Source: Aphrocallistes beatrix (taxonomy: Eukaryota; Porifera; Hexactinellida; Sceptrulophora; Aphrocallistidae). From it: a DNA stretch of 64,000 nt. The first letter of the stretch is position 1. Each line of letters opens with the position of its first letter. The stretch spans positions 2,232,001-2,296,000 of the forward strand of contig OY725496.1 of NCBI GenBank assembly GCA_963281255.1, in the 5' to 3' direction. Under the pieces are notes generated by a model that saw nothing but the letters and a program-made list of their open reading frames with translations, was not told where the DNA came from and searched no databases. Below are positions 8,204 through 64,000 of this stretch, piece by piece. The translations under genes were made by a program, and so were the position numbers.

Positions 8204-9337
8204 TTAATTAAAAAACTTTGGATTGAAATGTGCAGAATTTGGAGATTGAGTAAAATCAACAAGATCAACCAAAAGTGACATGGTTTCATGCTGGCCCTGG
8301 ATTGTGAAATGGCTAGCCTCAATCCCTGCTAAAATTTGTAAAACCAACTTCACAAAGTTTTCTTCCATGGGATTAGAATTTTTGACATTAAAGAAAATTT
8401 TTGAAGAATAATTTGGGTTTATAATATAACTCATTTCGTTTGAATTCTGACAGATAAAAGGATTATATGCATGTATTTCAACTCCAGATTTCTCTTCCAA
8501 AGCTGATCGTTGAGCTTTTGATAAATTATCGACGATAACCGCAACAAATAAATTGATAAATATAAAAGTTTCAGTGCCCATATAGAGGATAATATATATA
8601 TATAAATCTAAAGTACGGTTGGGATTTTTTTCTATTACAGAATGAAATATTGAGGCCCAATCATCCAGGGTAAGTAATTGGAAGCTCGTCACAATGGAAC
8701 GAAATATATTACCAAAATATTTAGGTGCTATATTTCCATAAAATCCTCGCCCAACAACAGCAAAGTTAAAAGCGACAAGGCCAATAAGAAGAAATAAGCT
8801 ACTGAAGGCTGGAACAGATCTTAGAACAGTCGTCACAATAATTTGCAATTTCCTAAGAAATCTAATGGCTCTTAAGGCTCTTATAGCACGAGTAGCCTTT
8901 AAAGCACGCAAAAAACTGAAAATATGGAAAATCTCGGAACCAATAATCTGGATATACATGGTTACGACTAACACTAGAAATTCTACATTCGCAGCTAATA
9001 CAATGATCAAATCAAAGATATTCCAGATATAACGAAAGAAATTAAGCCTAAATGCAAGAAATTTGATCACAATTTCGACTACATAGTAACTTAGAAAAAC
9101 ACAATCTGATAAGGATATATACCATCCGATTCTTGCTTTCAAATCTGGAATAGACTGAAGAGCTAAAAGAAGTGTATTGGATATTATTATTACCAAAGTA
9201 ATAAGATTAAATAAGCGTCCTTCAGCTAAAAATTTGGAATAACCTGATAGATTAGAATTACAACCATCAAATGTAGTCTTACAATTTTCTTTTTCGTTTG
9301 GTATATATTCAGAAAAGGAAAAATGGACACGTCTCAT
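8204..9337 (-). CDS. CatSper-type voltage-gated cation channel alpha subunit
   Basis: The 377-residue product has one six-helix ion-channel repeat: S1 about 43-63, S2 75-97, S3 104-131, S4 143-165, S5 176-199, pore loop about 213-230, S6 244-272. S4 has basic residues at three-residue spacing (R144, K147, R150, R153, R156, R159, R162). The pore carries TLDDW (223-227), fitting the CatSper filter pattern T-x-D/E-x-W. CatSper subunits form a Ca2+ channel of the sperm flagellum membrane. The pore FQLLTLDDW most resembles CatSper1, but the N-terminus is short and lacks a histidine-rich region, so the paralogue is uncertain. The first ATG at 9337 is 12 codons after an in-frame TAG. That TAG overlaps an acceptor-like TTATTATTCTAG, so an upstream exon cannot be excluded. 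The frame is intact and intronless, which is unusual for a CatSper gene. It sits between a Y and an X transposon copy. Confidence 0.85.
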   Translation of the reverse strand: MRRVHFSFSEYIPNEKENCKTTFDGCNSNLSGYSKFLAEGRLFNLITLVIIISNTLLLALQSIPDLKARIGWYISLSDCVFLSYYVVEIVIKFLAFRLNFFRYIWNIFDLIIVLAANVEFLVLVVTMYIQIIGSEIFHIFSFLRALKATRAIRALRAIRFLRKLQIIVTTVLRSVPAFSSLFLLIGLVAFNFAVVGRGFYGNIAPKYFGNIFRSIVTSFQLLTLDDWASIFHSVIEKNPNRTLDLYIYIILYMGTETFIFINLFVAVIVDNLSKAQRSALEEKSGVEIHAYNPFICQNSNEMSYIINPNYSSKIFFNVKNSNPMEENFVKLVLQILAGIEASHFTIQGQHETMSLLVDLVDFTQSPNSAHFNPKFFN

Positions 9338-10945: not shown

Positions 10946-12458
10946 CTAGTTGTCTGATTCAGTATAGCTTGTGATTGACAACTGCTTTGTGGGTTTTCTG
11001 AAAGTCACATCTGTAATATAGTCTTCAATTTCATAGAGAAAATTCAAGAACTTGGAGGAGTCGTCTTGACTTTCTAAGAAAACCCTTAATGTTTTCAGTG
11101 AGGCTGCGGCTGACTCACGTGTTGATTTAACTTCATGAATCACATCAATAATTTCATCGTCTTTATCATCAGTCAATGTATTATCACCTAGGATATCGTG
11201 TACAATTGAATCTTCGGTTACAACATCTGTAGTGGATAAATGGTAATCAGTTTCAAGATATTCAGCCAAGTCTGTGTTAGGATAGTGCTGCTGCGATAAT
11301 GAATCCCTAAAAATGATGCTGGTTGTATCCTCTTCAAAAACAAAAGGTTCGCCACTTTGAATAAATCTAACATGCTTGAAACAATTCTGAATCGTTTCTT
11401 CTGTGACCTTTTTCCAAGATTTATCTACAAAGTATATCGCCTGCAACAAGTTAAAATTCTTGGTTATTATCAATTGCAGCAATCCTACGTCTGACAATAT
11501 CCAGTTTATAATGATATTTGAAATTGCGGATAACACCCGATCCATAGGCTGTGTAAATGCAGTGGTGTTCGGAAGAAGAAACATTAATTTTGTATTCCTT
11601 AGATTCTCTATTTGTGGATGGCATGGACAGTTGTCAACAATAAGAACGATTTTCCTGCTAGAGGCATCCATTTTGGTCAATTTTGCGAACATAGCTGGTG
11701 AATAGGTCTGAATTCATCCAGACCTTAGAATTAGATTGGTAATCGATCGGAATGTGGGAGTTAGCAAAACATCTTGGTTTTTGGGATTTTCCGATAACCA
11801 TCAGCGGTAGCTTTTCGCCGAGGGCACTAGCCCCAACTAATATTGTAATCCTGTCCTTAGCGTGCTTGTCACCCTTACAATCCATTCCTTTAAATTGAAG
11901 GGTACGTTCAGGCAGTAATTTCCAAAAGAGACCCGTTTCATCAATATTGAAAATGTTTCCCATCTGAAATTTCTGTGTTATTCCTGGGGGATAGTTTCCT
12001 TCCACATAGAAACTTGGTCTAAAGGCGGAGGCTGATTCACCATGAATTCTTTTCGCGATGATAGAATGCCGTGCTTTGAAACGGTTTATCCAATTTATGT
12101 CAATTTTATTCTGGAATTCCTCGCTAAACCCTAGCATTTTGGCGAACTGAATAGCTTTTTCAAGTAGAATAGTTCCCACTAAGCTAGGTTGTGCAGCATT
12201 TACCTGGAACCATTCCAGCAACGCTGTATCAACTAACTCCAAATCTATCGTTCTCTTTCTCTTAGTAGAAATACTAACTCGGCCAAATGCATACTGTTCA
12301 GTGACGTTATCCTTGTTCTTCTTCAATCGACATATCGTAGACTCGTTTACATCATACTTTGAAGCCAACTCTCTCTGCTTCCATCCTTTATCTATGAGTT
12401 TTAGAATTTCATATTTCGTTTTCAAGTCAATGTCATTCCTTGACATTTTAGTTGCCAT
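10946..12458 (-). pseudogene. Tigger/pogo transposase, one frameshift
   Basis: Two overlapping frames make one protein: 12458-11658 gives the first 266 codons and 11692-10946 the last 248, with one frameshift near 11690-11700. Residues about 12-55 form a CENP-B/psq helix-turn-helix (KYEILKLIDKGWKQRELASK), followed by a second DNA-binding domain about 80-140. The DDE core shows IDETG (first Asp), LIVDNCPCHP (second Asp) and LPNTTAFTQPMD (third Asp), with 30 residues between the second and third Asp, as expected for this family. The C-terminus ends near KQLSITSY, resembling the PCNA-binding motif reported for pogo-type transposases; that function is inferred. Apart from the single frameshift the frame is well preserved, so the element is young or the shift is recent. 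Confidence 0.9.
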
Positions 12459-14044: not shown

Positions 14045-14613
14045 CAAGCGCGCTTCGCTTGCTTGCGCTGCGCGGCTGGCGGACACTTTGTGTCCGCTGG
14101 AGGCTCCCTTCGGTCGCCTGGAAGTGACATTGGTTAATTATAATGGAGATATCATATCTAAATATGTCCATCTTAGTTTTGAAATCGATATCACTCGAAA
14201 AAACACTTGTCAATTGAAAATTTGTTAAACACTTTTGTCAAGTGAAAATTTGTCAATTTTAAAAATTTTGATGAGTAATGATGACGTCATAGCAACGTGA
14301 GTCATCATTGAGTCATCATTTTTTGATGATAGTTGCATCATATAGTTGCATCATACTATAATGGCTGAGTTATGCCCGAATAACTGTGTTACTTAACTTT
14401 TAAAAATGTTACAATGACGTCATAATTCCATGATGAGTCGACATTTTCGTCTGAGCTCAGAACTTACTGGAGCCATAGCCAAAATACTCCCACATGCCAA
14501 AAATTAGCTTTCTATGACCGGCAGTTTCTTCAATCAATTCGTTACAGATATATAGATAGATATATAATTATATATACACACACATACACATTAATCGAGT
14601 TTTAATAGTTGGA
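14045..14613 (-). mobile_element. Helitron-like non-autonomous element H1
   Basis: Read on the minus strand it starts TCCAACTATTAAAACTCG, a slightly decayed 5' end, and ends AGCGAAGCGCGCTTG. The flanks are A before the 5' end and T after the 3' end, without target duplication. The 3' part has serial hairpins including GGACACAAAGTGTCC. Two TGACGTCA sites lie inside. No Rep/helicase coding capacity. Confidence 0.82.
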
Positions 14614-24564: not shown

Positions 24565-25474
24565 GAGGCTGGATTCGGTTAACCGGTTAACCGGCTAACC
24601 GCCGTCGATCTCGGTTGACGGTTAAGAAAATCTTAGATCGGCTAGCCGATTTGCTTTATTTTCTAAATATTTACACTAATTTCATTGTTTTTCGACAGAG
24701 ATTCAGGAATATTACTTCTAAAAAATTAATAATCCTTACTATTAAAACTCGATGATTGTATATATATATATATATATATCTGTAACGAATTGATTGAAGA
24801 AACTGCCGGGCGCAGAAGGCTGATTTTTGGCATGTGGGAGTCTTTTGGCTATGGCTCCAGTAAGTTCTGAGTTCAGAGCAAAATGTCGACTCATCATGGA
24901 ATTATGACGTCATTGTCACATTTTTAAAAGTTAAGCAACACAGTTATTCGGGCATAACTCAGCCATTATTGGAGATAGAAGGCTGAAATTTTAATAGAAT
25001 CTGTATATTAACATACCTCACATATGATGCGACTTTCAAAAAATGATGACTCATCACTTTGTTATGACGTCATCATTACGCATCAAAAAATTTAAAATTG
25101 ACAAATTTGGTGATTTTTCGAGTGAAATCGATTTTAATAATTCACTAAGATGGACATATTTAGATATGTTATCTCCCTTATAATTAACCAAAGTGAACCC
25201 AGGCGACCGAAGGGAGCCTCCGGCGGACACGAAATGTCCGCCAGCCCCGCAGCGCAAGCAAGCGAAGCGTGCTTGTACATTATAATTTCTATTTTTAATC
25301 ATATAGTATATTTCGAGATAACTGAAAATTATCAAATTAATCACTAGCAGGTTAAATATTTGTCTAAAAATCCATATCTCAACCAATTAATATTGACATC
25401 GGTTAACCGGTTAACCGCCCTAGAGGAAACCAAAATAACCGAGCCCTAAAATCGGTTAACCAACCCCAGCCCTG
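24565..25474. mobile_element. hAT-type MITE with GGTTAACCG arrays, split by a Helitron
   Basis: Left end GAGGCTGGATTCGGTTAACC and right end GGTTAACCAACCCCAGCCCTG are inverted repeats. Flanks TACAAAAC (24557-24564) and TACAAAAT (25475-25482) form an 8-bp duplication with one mismatch. Without the Helitron at 24733-25275 the element is 367 bp. Subterminal GGTTAACCG palindromes are repeated. Confidence 0.83.
24733..25275 (+). mobile_element. Helitron-like non-autonomous element H2
   Basis: It starts TCCTTACTATTAAAACTCG and ends GCGAAGCGTGCTTG, inserted between A and T inside the hAT MITE. A TA microsatellite follows the 5' end. It carries two TGACGTCA sites and the 3' serial hairpins, with one arm partly mutated. 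Confidence 0.85.
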
Positions 25475-30887: not shown

Positions 30888-31417
30888 TCCTTACTATTAA
30901 AACTCGATTAATATTTGTATATATATATATCTTTTACGAATTGATTGAAGAAACTGCCATGCGCAGAAAGCTGATTTTTGGCATGTAGGAGTCTTTTGGC
31001 TATGGCTCCAGTAAGTTCTGAGCTCAGAGCAAAATGTCGACTCATCATGGAATTATGACGTCATTGTCACATTTTTAAAAGTTAAGCAACACAGTTATTC
31101 GAGCATAACTCAGCCATTATAGGAGATAGAAGGCTGAAATTTTAATAGAATCTGTAAACTAACACATATGATGCAACTATCATCAAAAAATGATGACTCA
31201 TCACTTTGTTATGACGCCATCATTACTCATCAAAATTTTAAAAATTGACAAATTTGGTGATTTTTGAGTGATATCGATTTTATAACTAAGATGGACATAT
31301 TTAGAGATTATATCTCCCTTATAATTAACCAGTCTCACCTCCAGGCGACCGAAGGGAGCCTCCGGCGGACACAAAGTGTCCGCCAGCCGCGCAGCGCAAG
31401 CAAGCGAAGCGCGCTTG
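30888..31417 (+). mobile_element. Helitron-like non-autonomous element H3
   Basis: It starts TCCTTACTATTAAAACTCG after A and ends GCGAAGCGCGCTTG before T, 530 bp long and uninterrupted. It is the cleanest copy of the consensus together with H11. One of the two TGACGTCA sites is changed to TGACGCCA. Confidence 0.88.
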
Positions 31418-53503: not shown

Positions 53504-53541
53504 TCCTTACTATTAGAACTCAATTAATATATATATATATA
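53504..53541 (+). mobile_element. Helitron-like 5' end fragment, outermost layer of a stack
   Basis: TCCTTACTATTAGAACTC plus its TATATA tract, cut by the next Helitron at 53542. The remainder of this copy should resume after the stack but was not found there; it was probably lost with the hAT MITE region near 56612-56778. Confidence 0.75.
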
Positions 53542-54433
53542 CAAGCACGCTTCGCATGCTTGCGATGCGCGGCTGGCAGACACTTTGTGTCCGCCGGAGG
53601 CGCGGTGCGGGCACCTGGGGTTACATTGATGAATTATAACGGAAATAACATCCCTGAATATGTTTGTCCTACTGTTATAATAGATATCGCATAAAAAATC
53701 AACAAATTTCCCAATTTTAAAATTTTGATGCGTAATGATGACGTCATAACAGAGTGATGAGTCATCATTTTTTGATGATAGTTTTATCATATGTGAGTTA
53801 TGTTAGTATACAAATTCAATTAAAATTTCAGTCTTCTATCTCCTATAATGGCTGAGTTATGCACGAAAAACTGTATTGCTTAATTTTAAAACATGTGACA
53901 ATGACGTCATAATTCCATGATGAGTCATCATTTTGCTCTGCGCTCAGAACTTAGTAGAGCCATAGCCAAAAGACTCCCGCATGCCAAAAATCAGCTTTCT
54001 GTGCCTGGCAATTTCTTCAATCAATTCGTTACAGAAATAGATATATAGTATTCAAGCGCGCTTCGCTAGCTTGCGCTGCGCGGCTGGCTGACACCTGGTG
54101 TCTGCAGGAGGCGCCCTCTGGGCGCCTGGGGTCACATTGATTAATTATAAAGGAGATAACATCTCTAAATACGTCTATCCTACTGTTATAATCGATATCG
54201 CACGAGAAATAACCAAATTATCAATTTATAAAATTTTGATGAGTAATGATGACGTCATAACAAGGGGATGAGTCATCATTTTCGTCTGAGCTCAGAACTT
54301 ACTGGAGCCATAGCCAAAATACTCCCACATGCCAAAAATCAGCTTTCTGCGCCCGGCAGTTTTTCAATCAATTCGTTACAGATATATACATATCCTTACT
54401 ATTAAACTCGATTAATGTATATTTATTTATTTA

Positions 54434-55546
54434 CAAGCGCGCTTCGCTTGCTTGCGTTGCGCGGCTGGCGGACACTTTGTGCCCGCCAGAGGCTCCCTTT
54501 GGTCGACTAGGGTCACATTGGTTAATTATAAGGGAGATAGCATCTCTAAATATGTCTGTCCTACTGTTATAATCGATACCACTCGAAAAATACCAAATTT
54601 GTCAATTTTAAAATTTTTGATGCGTAATGATAACATCATAACAAAGTGATGAGTTATCATTTTTTGATGATAGTTACATCATATGTGAGGTATGTTAGTA
54701 TACTTATTCTATTAAAATCTCAGCCTTCTATCTCCTATAATGGCTGAGTTATGCTCGAATAACTGTGTTGCTTAACTTTTAAAAATGTGATAATGACGTC
54801 ATAATTCAATGATGAGTCGACATTTTACTTTGCGCTCAGAATTTACTGGAGCTATAGCCAAAAGACTCCCACATGCCAAAAATTAGCTTTCTATGACCGG
54901 CAGTTTCTTCAATCAATTCGTTACAGAGATACTATATATATATACAGGTATCCCTCGCCGTTCGCGGGGGTTACGTTCCAGAGAATTGTCGCTAATGGCA
55001 AAATCGTGAACGGCAAGACGTTAGTTCAATGAGAATAGTGGGGTTACGTTCCTAGATTATAAAAACGACGCTAGATACAGTTTGAAAATACGCTATTGAT
55101 TCAATAGTTAAGCTGTAACACTGATACAAACACTGGCACAAGTGAAATGTTAATAAATGAAGTGATAAATGAAAGATATAGATCCCCTAGTAGCAAACCT
55201 AAGTGCCATACCTAAATAGTAAAGTCTAGCCTTACAATCACCAACCAATTTCCTCTTAGGCATGATGTAATTATTAGGTAGAAAATTATAAGTATCGAGA
55301 CAATAGGAACAGTAAATGCTTTTTCCAGGATAATATGTAGATACGTATAAGGTTATGAACTTAAGGTAGTTCATGAAACTACTGAAGAGAGTACCGAAAA
55401 CCGCGAAAAGTCGAAGGAACGAGTCGCGAATAGCAAAACAAGACTCAAAATATTTTCCGCGAATAGTCGAAACCGCGAATGGCAAACCCGCGAACGGCGA
55501 GGGTTACCTGTATATATATACAATAATCGAGTTTTAATAGTAAGGA
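54434..55546 (-). mobile_element. Helitron-like element H7, with a pogo-like MITE in its TATA tract
   Basis: 3' end CAAGCGCGCTTCGCTTGC at 54434, 5' end CGAGTTTTAATAGTAAGGA ending 55546. The host target ATTTA|TTTAT on both sides belongs to H8. Without the MITE at 54945-55510 the element is 547 bp. Confidence 0.87.
54945..55510. mobile_element. pogo-like MITE with ends CAGGTATCCCTCGCCGTTCG
   Basis: CAGGTATCCCTCGCCGTTCG and CGAACGGCGAGGGTTACCTG are inverted ends, flanked by TA. Subterminal CGCGAAT/CGCGAACGGC words are repeated several times. No transposase. It is the innermost layer of the Helitron stack. Confidence 0.83.
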
Positions 55547-55569
55547 TTTATTTATTTATATAGTATATA

Positions 55570-56038
55570 CACTACCCGGACAAAAGTATTCGACCACCAC
55601 GAAAACTTCCATACAAATAGTATTAAATTAGATCTTTTAAAAAAGGAATATGTGCTTAAACAGTAGAAAATTTTTAGTTCAAATTCGTAATCTACACATT
55701 CTAATTACTCATAATTGAGAGTTTCAACTCAATTACTTATTCTTATGTTGAAAATTATCAACCATGCCCCTTTGTGTCACTAAACGCCATTATAAATAAT
55801 GGCTGTGACTTGGGACAAGTAGCATCAAGTAGCAATTGTTGATATTTATTAACTTGGGAGTTAGTAATTAAGCTGAGTCTATCAATAATGAGTAATTAGA
55901 ATGTGTAGTTTACGAATTTGAAATAAAAAATAGAGTATTCAATACAGTTTGAGAACATATTCCTTTATGAATAGACCTACTTTAATACTATTTCTATGGC
56001 GGTTTCTGTGGTGGTCGAATACTTTTGTCCGGGTACTG
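55570..56038. mobile_element. Tc1-like MITE with ends CACTACCCGGACAAAAG
   Basis: Inverted ends CACTACCCGGACAAAAGTAT and ATACTTTTGTCCGGGTACTG are flanked by TA. It is the same family as 34768-35243. The inverted repeats extend beyond 35 bp. No coding capacity. Confidence 0.85.
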
Positions 56039-56611
56039 TATATATATATATATATATATATATGTAACGAATTGATTGAAGAAACTGCCGATCATAGAAA
56101 GATAATTTTTGGCATGTGGGAGTCTTTTGGCTATGGTTCCAGTAAGTTCTGAGCTCAGAGCAAAATGTCGACTTATCATGGAATTATGACGTCATTGTCA
56201 CATTTTAAAAAGTTAAGCAACACAGTTATTCGAGCATAACTCAGCCATTATAGGAGATAGAAGGCTGAAATTTTAATAGAATCTGTATACTGGCATACCT
56301 CAAATATAATGCAACTATAATCAAAAAATGATGACTCATCACTTTGTTATGACGTCATCATTACTCATCAAAATTTTAAAAATTGATAAAGTTGGTGATT
56401 TTTCGTGCGATATCGATTATAACAGTAGGAAAGATGTATTTAGAGATGTTATCTCCCTTATAATTAACCAATGTGACTCCAGGGGACCGAAGGGAGCCTC
56501 CGGCGGACACAAAGTGTCCGCCAGCCGCGCAGCGCAAGCAAGCGAAGTGCGCTTGTATATATATATACATTAATCGAGTTTTAATAGTAAGGATAGAGAT
56601 TAATCGAGTTT

Positions 56612-56778
56612 AACAGCTCAAATTGGGCTGTTAACAGCAAAAAAAATTACTTTAAAAGCTCAAATAACAGCAGAGCTAGACTGTTAATTGTTTGGAAATT
56701 GTAGCTGTTAACAGCGAATTGTGAGCTGTTAACAGCAAACAGCCAAAGTGGCTGTTATCAGCATTTACACCATCCCTG
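56612..56778. mobile_element. hAT MITE fragment with GCTGTTAACAGC repeats
   Basis: Several GCTGTTAACAGC palindromes and the terminus CCATCCCTG at 56778 match the complete element at 61032-61549 in reverse orientation. Its other end is missing. Confidence 0.78.
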
Positions 56779-57236
56779 TGAATGTGTCAAAAACCTCCAA
56801 TAATTTTTCAATTTTTAGAAACGCTAAACTTTAGGCAATGGTTTTGGAAGATCTCATCGAGTAGAAACGGATGAGTTGAAAAGATTTTCGATTTTACTTT
56901 TGAAAAATGTTAAGATATTTTTCCATACGAAAATCTGTTCGTAAATATTGTAGCTAGTGAAAAGTAAACAAAAATTTAAATAGGTTAAAATTGAAAATTC
57001 TGCTTCATCATATATTTTATTCAACCATTTTGTGCAAGAATAATTGAATAAAAGGGACATAAGGTATTAAATTTTCTCGAATGTCCTTCACAAATTTGGT
57101 GATTCTCAAAAAAGATTTTTTCTTACTTCATGGGCTCACAAAAGTGTGTTTTTGGATTTAACTCATCGACAGTTCACCCAAAAAATTCATTAGAAAATAG
57201 TTAAAAATTTTTAGGTTAGTTCTGGAAGGAAAAGCT
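56779..57236. other. Short Y fragment, then unassigned DNA
   Basis: 56779-56836 matches the Y family (AACCTCCAATAATTTTTCAA, GCTAAACTTTAGG). From 56840 to 57236 nothing was recognised. Confidence 0.5.
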
Positions 57237-60795: not shown

Positions 60796-61031
60796 GTAGT
60801 TAGATTAGGAAAAATTACGAATAGTAACAATGAATTCAGTAAGCAAAGTAGACAAAATGAAACTTCGGTTTAAAAATAAATGCAAAATAACCAATCGAAA
60901 TATACCGGTCAAGACTTTTGAGACAGCCTGTATATACATACAAGCGCGCTTCGCTTGCTTGCGCTGCGCGGCTGGCGGACAATTTGTGTCCGCTGCTTTG
61001 GGCGCCTGGGTTCACATTGATTAATTATAAG

Positions 61032-61549
61032 CAGGGATGGTGTAAATGCTGTTAACAGCCACTTTGGCTGTTTGCTGTTAACAGCTCACAATTGGCTGTT
61101 AACAGCTACAATTTCCAAACAATTAACAGTCTAGCTCTGCTGTTATTTGAGCTTTTAAAGCAATTTTCTTTTGCTGTTAACGGCCCAATTTGAGCTGTTA
61201 ACAGCCAATTCGAGCTGTTAACAGCCAACAGCCAAATAGTAAATATTTACATAACAGTCAAGGTTAAGCTATATGGTTCTATAATAATATCTATATTTTT
61301 GAATAATTTATCTCAAATTTAGATTATAAAAATAGATAGACAGATATAAATTAAAATTTAGCGATAGCTGTTAACAGCCACAATTTTGCGTTGGCTGTTA
61401 ATTAACCCGAGCACGTCCAGGAATGTTGAATTGAAAGTGAAAGTTAATTGAAAGTAAACTGAAAATGAAAATGAAAGCTGGGTCATTTCTATTTATACCT
61501 TTGACCCCAAGTAATCCTCAGGTTAACAGCTTAGCTATTTCCATCCCTG
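61032..61549. mobile_element. hAT-type MITE with GCTGTTAACAGC arrays
   Basis: CAGGGATGG and CCATCCCTG are the inverted ends; the 8-bp duplication ATTATAAG is perfect (61024-61031 and 61550-61557) and derived from the Helitron body. The palindrome GCTGTTAACAGC occurs many times near both ends. It contains a 117-bp TTAA MITE at 61406-61522. Two further truncated copies are at 56612 and 62045. Confidence 0.88.
61406..61522. mobile_element. 117-bp TTAA-site MITE, second copy
   Basis: TTAA (61402-61405 and 61523-61526) flanks a 117-bp segment starting CCCGAGCACG and ending AATCCTCAGG. Its middle (CCAGGAATGTTGAATTGAAA, TCATTTCTATTTATACCTTT) matches 18165-18281, which has exactly the same length. 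The termini have diverged. Confidence 0.78.
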
Positions 61550-62044
61550 ATTATAAGGGAGATAACATCTTACTGTTAAAACGATATCGTGCGAAAAATC
61601 ACCAAATTTGTCAATTTTTGAAATTTTCATGCACAATGATGACGTTATAACATAGTGATGAGTCAACACTTTTTGAGTATAGTTGTATCACATGTGAGGA
61701 ATATTAATATACACATTATATTAAAACTTCAGTCTTCTATCACCTAAAATGGCTGAGTTACAGTCAAAAAACTGACATTTCTAATTATTATAAAGGTGAC
61801 AATGACGTCATAATTCCATGATGAGTCTACATTTTCGTCTGAACTCAAAACTTAGTGGAGCAATAGCCAAAAGACCCCCACATGCCAAAAATCAGCTTTC
61901 TGTGCCTAGCAGTTTCTTCAATCAATTCGTTACAGATGACGACTCATGGAATTATGACGTCAATTTTGTATGATTAGAAATATCAGTATTTCGACTATAA
62001 CTGAGCCATTTTTGGTGCTAGAAGGCTGAACACAAACAAAACGA

Positions 62045-62301
62045 GTTTTAATTTAACAGCCAATTCGAGCTGTTACAGCCCAATTTGAGCTGTTAACAGC
62101 CAACAGTCAAATAGTAAATATTTACACAACAGTCAAGGTTAAGCTATATGGTTCTATAATAATATTTATATTTTTGAATAATTTATCTCAAATTTAGATT
62201 ATAAAAATAGATAGACAGATATGAATAAAAATTTAGGGATAGCTGTTAACAGCTGCAAGCTGTTAATAGCGCTATTAAAAGCTTAGCTGTTTCCATCCCT
62301 G
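62045..62301. mobile_element. hAT MITE fragment with GCTGTTAACAGC repeats
   Basis: From TTAACAGCCAATTCGAGC to CCATCCCTG it matches the right two-thirds of 61032-61549 but lacks the TTAA MITE, so it shows that element before the TTAA insertion. The left end is missing. Confidence 0.75.
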
Positions 62302-64000
62302 CACATTCACCAATTAGTTTTTAACTTATTTGATAGTTTTTTAATGATATGGACCTTAACATTGTTTTGGCACCTTTGGAGATTCTATCCTTACTATTAA
62401 AACTCGATTATTGTTTGTTTATATATATATATGTAACGAATTGATTGAAGAAAATACTCAGCACAGAAAGCTGATTTTTGGCATGTGGGAGTCTTTTGGC
62501 TATGGCTCCAGTAAGTTCTGAGCTCAGACAAAATGTCGACTCATCATGGAATTATGACGTCATTGTCACATTTTGAAAAGTTAAGCAACACAGTTATTCG
62601 GGCATAAATCAGCCATTATAGGAGATAGAAGGCTGAAACTTTAAGAGAATCTGTATACTAACATATTTCACATATGATACAACTCACATCCAAATATGAT
62701 GACTCATCACTCTGTTATGACGTCATCACTACGCATCAAAATTTAAAAATTGATAATTTTGGTGTTTTTTCGAGTGATATCGATTTTAAATCTAAGATGG
62801 ACATATTTAGAGATGATATCTCCCTTATAATTAACCAATGTCACCTCCAGGCGACTGAAGGGAGCCTCCGGCGGACACAAAGTGTCCGCCAGCCGCGCAG
62901 CGCAAGCAAGCGAAGCGCGCTTGTAACACAAAGATTTAAAGAATGGCCAAATAAAATCCAAACAAAATAGCTCTATAAGGGAATTCATTTATTTAAAGTT
63001 CGGGAAATCGCATGTTTGATTTCAGATATTTAGCGATCACTGGATCCGAAATAAAATTCTGATCGTTTCAAAAAATAATTTGTTCGGATCCGACCATTTA
63101 TTCGTGATATATCGCTTACTGCATGTAAAGTTGTAAAGTTGTAAAGTTGCATGTAAAGGCATAATATCTCTCTATGGTCCCGAAATATGGCGATGTCAGA
63201 TCTTAAAAACTATTGAAGATATATAATCTATTATATATTCTTAAATAAAAGGATATATGCGAAAATATATAAGTTCCTCCAACATTCCTTTGTCAAAAAA
63301 TAAATATTTCTCGACTTATTATTGATTTAATTGTAATACATATTATATGGAGAACTTTGAATATATTAGAAAATGGCGAATCTAATCATTAAATATGTAC
63401 CCAAATGTGGCTATTATGATAAATAATGAATACAATTGTCGTTAATAATGTGTATAAAAAATTGGAGAACTTTTGATAATTATTTGAAAATTCTGGCTTG
63501 GATCTCCCAGATTCGGTCAAAAACCCCCATTTAGGGTGCAAAAAGTGAAATCTCTATCTCTCTAAATATAAGCCCAAATTCTTAGTTCTCACTTGCTAAT
63601 ATACTTTTTATTAGGGTGCATATATGATTCATTAATAATAATTGCACTATATCCTATGGAATATAAGTTTTGGATTTTTGTCATATGATGACGTAGCATT
63701 TTTCGAAAATACTAACTTGGAAACTAAAGGTCGTATACTTTCGCTCTAACTTCCTAATATACTTTTTGGAAGCTCTTTATTCGTTATAAACTGATAGACT
63801 ATACTTCGTAGTGCTTGGAATATGAATTTTTATTCACAATTTTCTCAAAATATTCGGGGTTAGTAGCTTTAAGAAAATTTGTGGATTTTCAGGGTACTTG
63901 TGCTATTTTATGTAAATGTTTGGTTTGAATATACATAAATCAGCAGTATAAATGCGAATAAATGTCTGTGAATGATTTTGTTCATTATTAATAACTCATT
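62302..64000 (+). mobile_element. TTAA-site transposon, family Y, cut by the window end
   Basis: From CACCAATTAGTTTTTAAC onwards it follows the Y copies at 6270-7400 and 15440-16570 to the last base of the window. Its left terminus is missing. Helitron H11 interrupts it at 62388-62923. No coding capacity. Confidence 0.82.
62388..62923 (+). mobile_element. Helitron-like non-autonomous element H11
   Basis: TCCTTACTATTAAAACTCG to GCGAAGCGCGCTTG, 536 bp. The flanks GAGATTCTA and TAACACAAAG join to give the sequence present uninterrupted at 6335-6353 (GAGATTATATAACACAAAG, one difference). This shows insertion between A and T with no duplication and no loss. The body contains two TGACGTCA and one TGACTCA site and three 3' hairpins. 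Confidence 0.9.

Follow-up and report, generated by a model that had tools for sequence, protein, structure and literature searches.

The window, meaning the whole 64,000-nucleotide stretch of DNA analyzed, carries 5' ends and bodies of Helitron-like elements on both strands between positions 53504 and 56611. The locus raises the question of whether these pieces represent elements inserted one inside another and, if so, what would lead later copies into earlier ones at a single internal position.

Family structure and terminal sequences

The elements belong to a high-copy family of non-autonomous Helitrons of ~540 bp, with ends A/TCCTTACTATTA...hairpin...CTTG/T and an A^T target (a slash marks a boundary or joint). 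A solo copy is laid out as A/TCCTTACTATTAAAACTCGATTAATG, a (TA)n tract, TAACGAATTG..., a body of ~490 bp, the hairpin, and CTTG/T, with the TA tract starting ~25 bp inside the 5' end. In the window, solo copies read A/TCC...CTTG/T:

24733..25275, plus strand: solo un-nested member, which served to fix the ends
30888..31417, plus strand: solo member
62388..62923, plus strand: solo member
14045..14609, minus strand: solo older member (K2P of 0.087 from the consensus)

Family heads with at most one mismatch numbered 4847 in the 100.5-Mb genome (control 0). Solo copies have the 5' terminal TC, and their flanks, judged from occupied sites, display A^T insertion without target-site duplication. In the notation used below h is a 5' head, b a body, and the sign the strand; A preceded TCC in 95/95 h+/h+ rows and, counted by eye, in 97 among 100 b-/h+ matches listed of 172. 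The last 26-55 bases fold into a hairpin whose 3' arm almost touches the terminus rather than lying several bases inside it. The 3' terminus was CTTG in solo copies, in the consensus, and in the autonomous relative described below, and not the canonical CTRR, which counts against the explanation favored here; 3' terminal CTRR is given for the canonical Helitron subgroup in the accessible text of PMC3789558. The A^T target also differs from the TT insertion preference that the accessible part of PMC4067079 ascribes to Helentron/Helitron2 (DINE-1-like) elements. A TIR or foldback transposon was ruled out, as the inverted heads next to bodies belong to separate elements. The window was also scanned for Rfam families and tRNAs, with no match.

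Autonomous relative

An autonomous relative of ~9.5 kb was found in the same genome at C2:3994039-4003543 (L043:709 to L057:543). Its 5' head is the same as that of the short family, its first ~480 body bases are 89% identical, and its 3' end has the same hairpin-CTTG. A 1958-aa ORF within it had domain matches to Helitron_like_N (E 1.8e-59), PIF1 (4.2e-74), and Pif1_2B. When the 3' side was compared with a copy on C3, likeness stopped one shared T past CTTG and gave way to a different flank. The original prediction of Helitron identity is thus borne out by the ends, the A^T target, and a Rep/PIF1-helicase partner having both ends in common with the family, which on sequence grounds places the family among putative RepHel elements. 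Because the 9.5-kb element has the same head, body start, and hairpin-CTTG, the short family is most simply viewed as its internal-deletion derivative, and the partner protein presumably moves the short copies.

In the autonomous relative, tandem ~77-bp repeats (L043:7500-7910) separate the helicase ORF from the 3' end. L044 and L045 were ruled out as autonomous partners since their head differs (TCTTATATATTAAAACTCTAG), marking another Rep/Helicase Helitron family; they have some subterminal sequence in common with the family studied here (CGAATTGATTGAAG). L050 is a further Rep/Helicase relative, ~71% over coding stretches, without the family head.

Organization of the nest

Read from left to right, the tokens of the nest are h+(53504), b-A(53542-54031), b-B(54053-54378), h+(54393), b-C(54434-54923), a pogo-like MITE (54945-55510), h-(55524-55546), a Tc1-like MITE (55570-56038), b+D(56065-56555), h-(56569-56593), and a partial h-(56599-56611). 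A bracket parse placed C in D, D in B, B in A, and A in the 53504 head, giving four elements one inside another at 53542-56611 (A minus, B minus, D plus, C minus). Bodies previously numbered H5, H6, H8, and H7 correspond to A, B, D, and C, respectively, by a mapping made in this analysis. The features are as follows:

53504..53541, plus strand: outermost layer, which consists of a 5' head with its TA tract and lacks a body; 35/38 identical to the model head
53542..54052, minus strand: layer A (H5), body and inner tract part; K2P 0.103 from the consensus
54053..54392, minus strand: layer B (H6), body with internal deletion and inner tract; a repeated motif makes the two pieces of the body overlap by 34 bp
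54393..54433, plus strand: layer D (H8), 5' head and outer tract, from the restored alignment
54434..54944, minus strand: layer C (H7), body and inner tract; K2P 0.062
54945..55510: pogo-like MITE in the tract of C; 24-bp inverted ends (23/24 identical), TA on both sides
55511..55546, minus strand: layer C, outer tract and 5' head, from the restored alignment
55548..55569, plus strand: layer D, tract stretch between guest C and the Tc1-like MITE, from the restored alignment
55570..56038: Tc1-like MITE in the tract of D; a near-palindrome that matches its reverse complement at 77%, with TA on both sides
56039..56555, plus strand: layer D, inner tract and body up to the CTTG end; K2P 0.046
56556..56593, minus strand: layer B, outer tract and 5' head, from the restored alignment
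56594..56611, minus strand: layer A, 5' head remnant with the first 12 bases gone; 56599-56611 correspond to head positions 13-25
56610..56779: hAT-like MITE, right-hand fragment where the nest breaks off on the right; 97% to 61032-61201

With guests lifted out, A, B, D, and C each aligned continuously with the family model across their junctions at 90-96% identity. Restored D (580 bp) was 95.7% identical over 536 aligned bases to the model element, C (547 bp) 94.4% over 536, B (378 bp, with its internal deletion) 93.8% over 372, and A (529 bp, with the first 12 head bases lost) 90.3% over 524. The order and orientation originally proposed (53504 plus, H5 minus, H6 minus, H8 plus, H7 minus) agree with the bracket parse, and the restored alignments put the pogo-like MITE in H7 and the Tc1-like MITE in H8 as had been read. 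The expectation of ~540 bp for each restored copy held for C and roughly for D but not for the truncated A or the internally deleted B. Likewise, "at least five" nested elements, each resuming on the far side of its guest, holds for four restorable layers; the fifth, at 53504, is a head only and does not resume. No plus-strand body for this head lies beside the nest, the next b+ match in the window being a fragment at 61944-62030. At 56610 the truncated head of A abuts the 170-bp hAT-like MITE fragment, and the simplest account would be one deletion that took the 5' end of A, the outermost body, and part of the hAT-like MITE. Layer B has lost ~165 bp at 54249-54282; the loss runs from one copy to the other of an internal ~34-bp repeat (body ~103-136 and 266-299).

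The MITEs are ones that we take to be pogo-like, Tc1-like, and hAT-like from their end sequences and duplications. TA is the target of Tc1- and pogo-like MITEs. A second copy of the pogo-like MITE of the nest was not found elsewhere in the window; two adjoining pogo/CENP-B-like transposase ORFs (DDE_1, HTH_Tnp_Tc5) lie on the minus strand at 10946-12458 and are of a type that could move pogo-like MITEs. A complete hAT-like MITE copy occupies 61033-61550, with an 8-bp ATTATAAG duplication; this family (61033-61550, 56610-56779, 62053-62301) has CAGGGATGG ends and many GCTGTTAACAGC motifs, and one copy interrupts another Helitron body at 60941-61932. Elsewhere in the window, a CatSper-like ORF (8204-9337) has its closest named match, at 65%, in the glass sponge Oopsacas minuta, and on this one protein the host is probably a glass sponge as well.

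Divergence of the layers

The original prediction treated the nest as a relative clock in which inner layers are not older than outer ones. K2P distances from a single consensus follow this order for A (0.103), B (0.081), and D (0.046) but not for C (0.062), the innermost layer being slightly more diverged than its host D by a small gap (29/490 vs 22/491 differences). Across loci, with seeds selected by similarity to D so that young guests are favored in the comparison, the host was the more diverged in 11/13 scorable pairs (of 14) and in 5/5 pairs where neither member was a seed; adding C in D, which falls outside the pair gap rule and runs the wrong way, gives 11/14. The guest was clearly more diverged than its host at L003 (39/491 vs 14/490) and somewhat more so at L007 (32/491 vs 23/491). 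At L020, a further pair was excluded as its right side runs past the end of the locus; it, too, went the wrong way (host 0.033, guest 0.066). The order of nesting gives a reliable relative order of insertion; divergence from a single consensus is not a clean measure of age, probably because copies stem from different subfamilies.

Nesting across the genome

Exact-motif searches of the 100.5-Mb genome for four types of nesting junction yielded h+/b- 122, b-/b- 28, h+/h+ 95, and b-/h+ 172, a total of 417, with 0 in every reversed-pattern control; these counts take in some duplicated segments (the L020/L025/L027 nest enters three times in h+/b-), so independent events are fewer. A search for a single full nesting junction (47 bases, at most 3 mismatches) gave 12 sites and was too strict for counting. 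Self junctions (h+/b+, gap 4-18) numbered 107 (control 1), an under-count as most intact tracts are longer than the allowed gap, and b+/h+ matches (gap 0-14) numbered 167 (control 0).

Locally, neighboring tokens with complete edges and a gap of at most 80 in 27 loci plus the window comprised 33 self, 52 nesting, 10 side-by-side, and 2 forbidden junctions (n=97); the 27 loci were picked by closeness to D, which biases nesting rates to young copies. Removal of inner elements left complementary outer halves in 9/14 cases at a self-gap of at most 80 and in 14/19 at a self-gap of at most 700. Five enclosed cases in either run lacked complementary flanks, which counts against the favored explanation; in the stricter run, four of these had a flank not facing a tract and one (L030) was a true mismatch. 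L020, L025, and L027 (C7, C11, C13) hold one and the same nest with ~1.5 kb of upstream flank at 99%, and L025 and L027 were left out of all local tallies (neighbors, flanks, K2P, pairs, 3' and 5' ends, TA runs). A mobile composite of nested copies was considered but is not proven by these three loci, which, with flanks 99% alike, look like duplicated segments dispersed in the genome or like pieces of a larger repeat or mobile unit; L027 parts from the flank likeness of L020 and L025 after ~2.2 kb.

TA tract as the insertion target

The common insertion point first noticed in the window, the TA tract inside the 5' end, is supported by the restored layers and by nesting genome-wide. Among seed copies (n=27, those closest to D and hence young), the 3' end lay in the tract of another member in 17, abutted a member in 2, and was placed otherwise in 8. 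In the 27 loci plus the window, a family tract was faced by 31/77 classified 3' ends and 19/68 5' ends. In the window alone, the corresponding values were 4/13 and 2/9, all in this nest; the 3'-end value weighs against the favored explanation.

TA runs were tallied over 165.5 kb, comprising the window and 19 loci not picked by body similarity, some of them overlapping. Runs of at least 12 bp numbered 8 at family tracts and 1 elsewhere, and those of at least 10 bp numbered 10 and 10; at 8 bp or more, 14 were at family tracts and 32 elsewhere (n=46), which again counts against the favored explanation.

A mechanism can be proposed in which the Rep/Helicase partner would move the short copies and insert them between A and T, favoring (TA)n runs. 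Each family copy would bring its own TA run, beginning ~25 bp inside its 5' end, and with sampled long TA runs being nearly all family tracts, each insertion would provide an additional landing pad. Later copies would then enter earlier ones at the same internal point, repeatedly, like nested dolls, and the Tc1- and pogo-like MITEs would use the same TA pad. As judged from sequence patterns, a preference for long TA runs combined with a built-in run very probably accounts for the recurrent insertion point, and we hold TA-run targeting with a built-in pad to be, with high probability, the account of the nesting as well. We infer that TA-run preference alone would suffice for targeting.

Orientation of guests

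An excess of guests inserted opposite to their hosts was unforeseen and is not accounted for by TA-run preference; because TA runs are symmetric, that preference alone yields no orientation bias. Genome-wide, the odds ratio of opposite to parallel junctions, in which differences in motif conservation among junction types cancel, was (122x172)/(95x28)=7.9, or 2.8-fold per junction (Fisher p ~4e-20, a value that overstates certainty, as junctions at the same locus and in duplicated segments are not independent). The excess recurred among local junctions in the 27 loci plus the window (38 opposite vs 14 parallel) and among complete nests (10 vs 4).

This excess speaks for targeting by protein, in which a transposase on the resident 5' end would guide newcomers to the adjacent tract, so that the tract would be preferred more than its TA content explains and one strand would be favored. 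The distribution of classified 3' ends (n=77), with 31 in family tracts vs 6 in other TA-rich DNA, points the same way. However, the longest TA runs are themselves family tracts, so that length alone may account for the preference, and parallel nests are direct repeats that may vanish by deletion, leaving the same bias; we consider targeting by protein unlikely. A self-targeting Helitron in the wider sense, in which transposase bound to a resident 5' end, or DNA left strand-exposed as that end is copied, would steer newcomers into the adjacent (TA)n pad on the opposite strand, may be entertained as a tentative, minority reading; much of the spread would then be confined to the family, and host genes spared. 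The bias would reflect either a non-random choice of the target strand or deletions between direct repeats that remove parallel nests. The 2.8-fold opposite-strand excess offers a testable handle on how Helitrons choose their target strand.

Concatenation, recombination, and assembly

Tandem rolling-circle concatemers, instead of nesting, could place heads and bodies of several copies side by side. Joints of CTTG directly to TCC without an intervening base occurred in 57 among 100 listed of the 167 b+/h+ matches and made up 5/10 local side-by-side junctions; L046, L047, and L048 (C1:1708706, 3309195, 3726394) are head-to-tail dimers of this kind. Such joints are a rolling-circle hallmark, as read-through would give. 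They lack a TA tract, however, and in the nest studied here orientations are mixed, junctions contain tract sequence, and heads lie 0.6-2.5 kb from their bodies; the bracket parse and restored alignments also contradict concatemers at this locus, making them a very improbable source of its structure. The family thus nests and concatenates, and the TA tract tells the two apart; concatemers exist but do not build the nest in the window.

Exchange between the TA tracts of different copies, by recombination or template switching, has a possible trace in the forbidden b-/b+ junctions, of which 16 rows were found genome-wide (control 2 rows), equal to 8 sites as the pattern is palindromic. These eight sites, which could be products of tract-to-tract recombination or of inner deletions, lie outside simple nesting, need later deletions, and are counted against nesting into TA pads. 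Nesting junctions join a tract to an outer terminus (A/TCC or CTTG/T), which tract-to-tract exchange cannot produce, and they outnumber these sites by 417 to 8; the other forbidden joint, h+/h-, was found in 0/97 local junctions, and recombination is scarcely credible as a general explanation. An assembly artefact of a repeat-rich region, the locus being known here from the assembly alone, deserves almost no weight, as the same grammar recurs at hundreds of sites, junction bases mostly obey the A^T rule, and layers 4-10% off the model are not one sequence repeated.

Comparison with known systems

A transposon that carries its preferred target represents a built-in sink for its own insertions, and such a sink could help to account for the tolerance of copies in such numbers, 4847 near-exact heads having been counted in 100.5 Mb. 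From the nests an insertion order can be read directly, with no need for a molecular clock, and subfamilies can be ranked. The searches made, in literature lying mostly outside subscription journals, turned up no Helitron described as inserting repeatedly into an internal TA tract of its own; no glass-sponge genome literature on Helitrons was found, and none of the hexactinellid assembly or transposable element papers concerned own-tract nesting by title.

A^T insertion, head-to-tail junctions, and tandem arrays have been reported for Helitrons (Grabundzija et al. 2018, PMC5876387, accessible text). As described there, Helraiser and canonical Helitrons resemble the sponge family in the Rep/Helicase protein, the A^T target without duplication, and the 3' hairpin, whereas the sponge family ends in CTTG, has an internal TA pad, and shows deep self-nesting at one site. 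FoHeli of Fusarium oxysporum likewise inserts into itself, giving nested or composite Helitrons with multiple 5' termini, but the accessible part of that report (PMC5148889) has one nested example as against hundreds of junctions at one internal position in the sponge family. Nested maize Helitrons have been described and nested intermediates proposed, although no single internal target tract is described in the accessible portion of the source (PMC3288121).

Beyond Helitrons, the SaTar MULE arrays of guayule and rice are similar in that short non-autonomous elements become arrayed through microsatellite targeting; according to the available text (PMC5907723) they are Mu-like and their arrays are uniformly non-nested, unlike the sponge family with its nesting junctions. 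MuTAnT of Medicago also has TA microsatellites as its target, with nested insertions or rearrangements in 20 copies, but is Mutator-like and not rolling-circle, and the accessible text describes no self-nesting system (PMC4486113). Helitron self-insertion and tandem Helitrons are already known, and what is new in the sponge family is the use, on such a scale, of a landing pad that the element itself carries.
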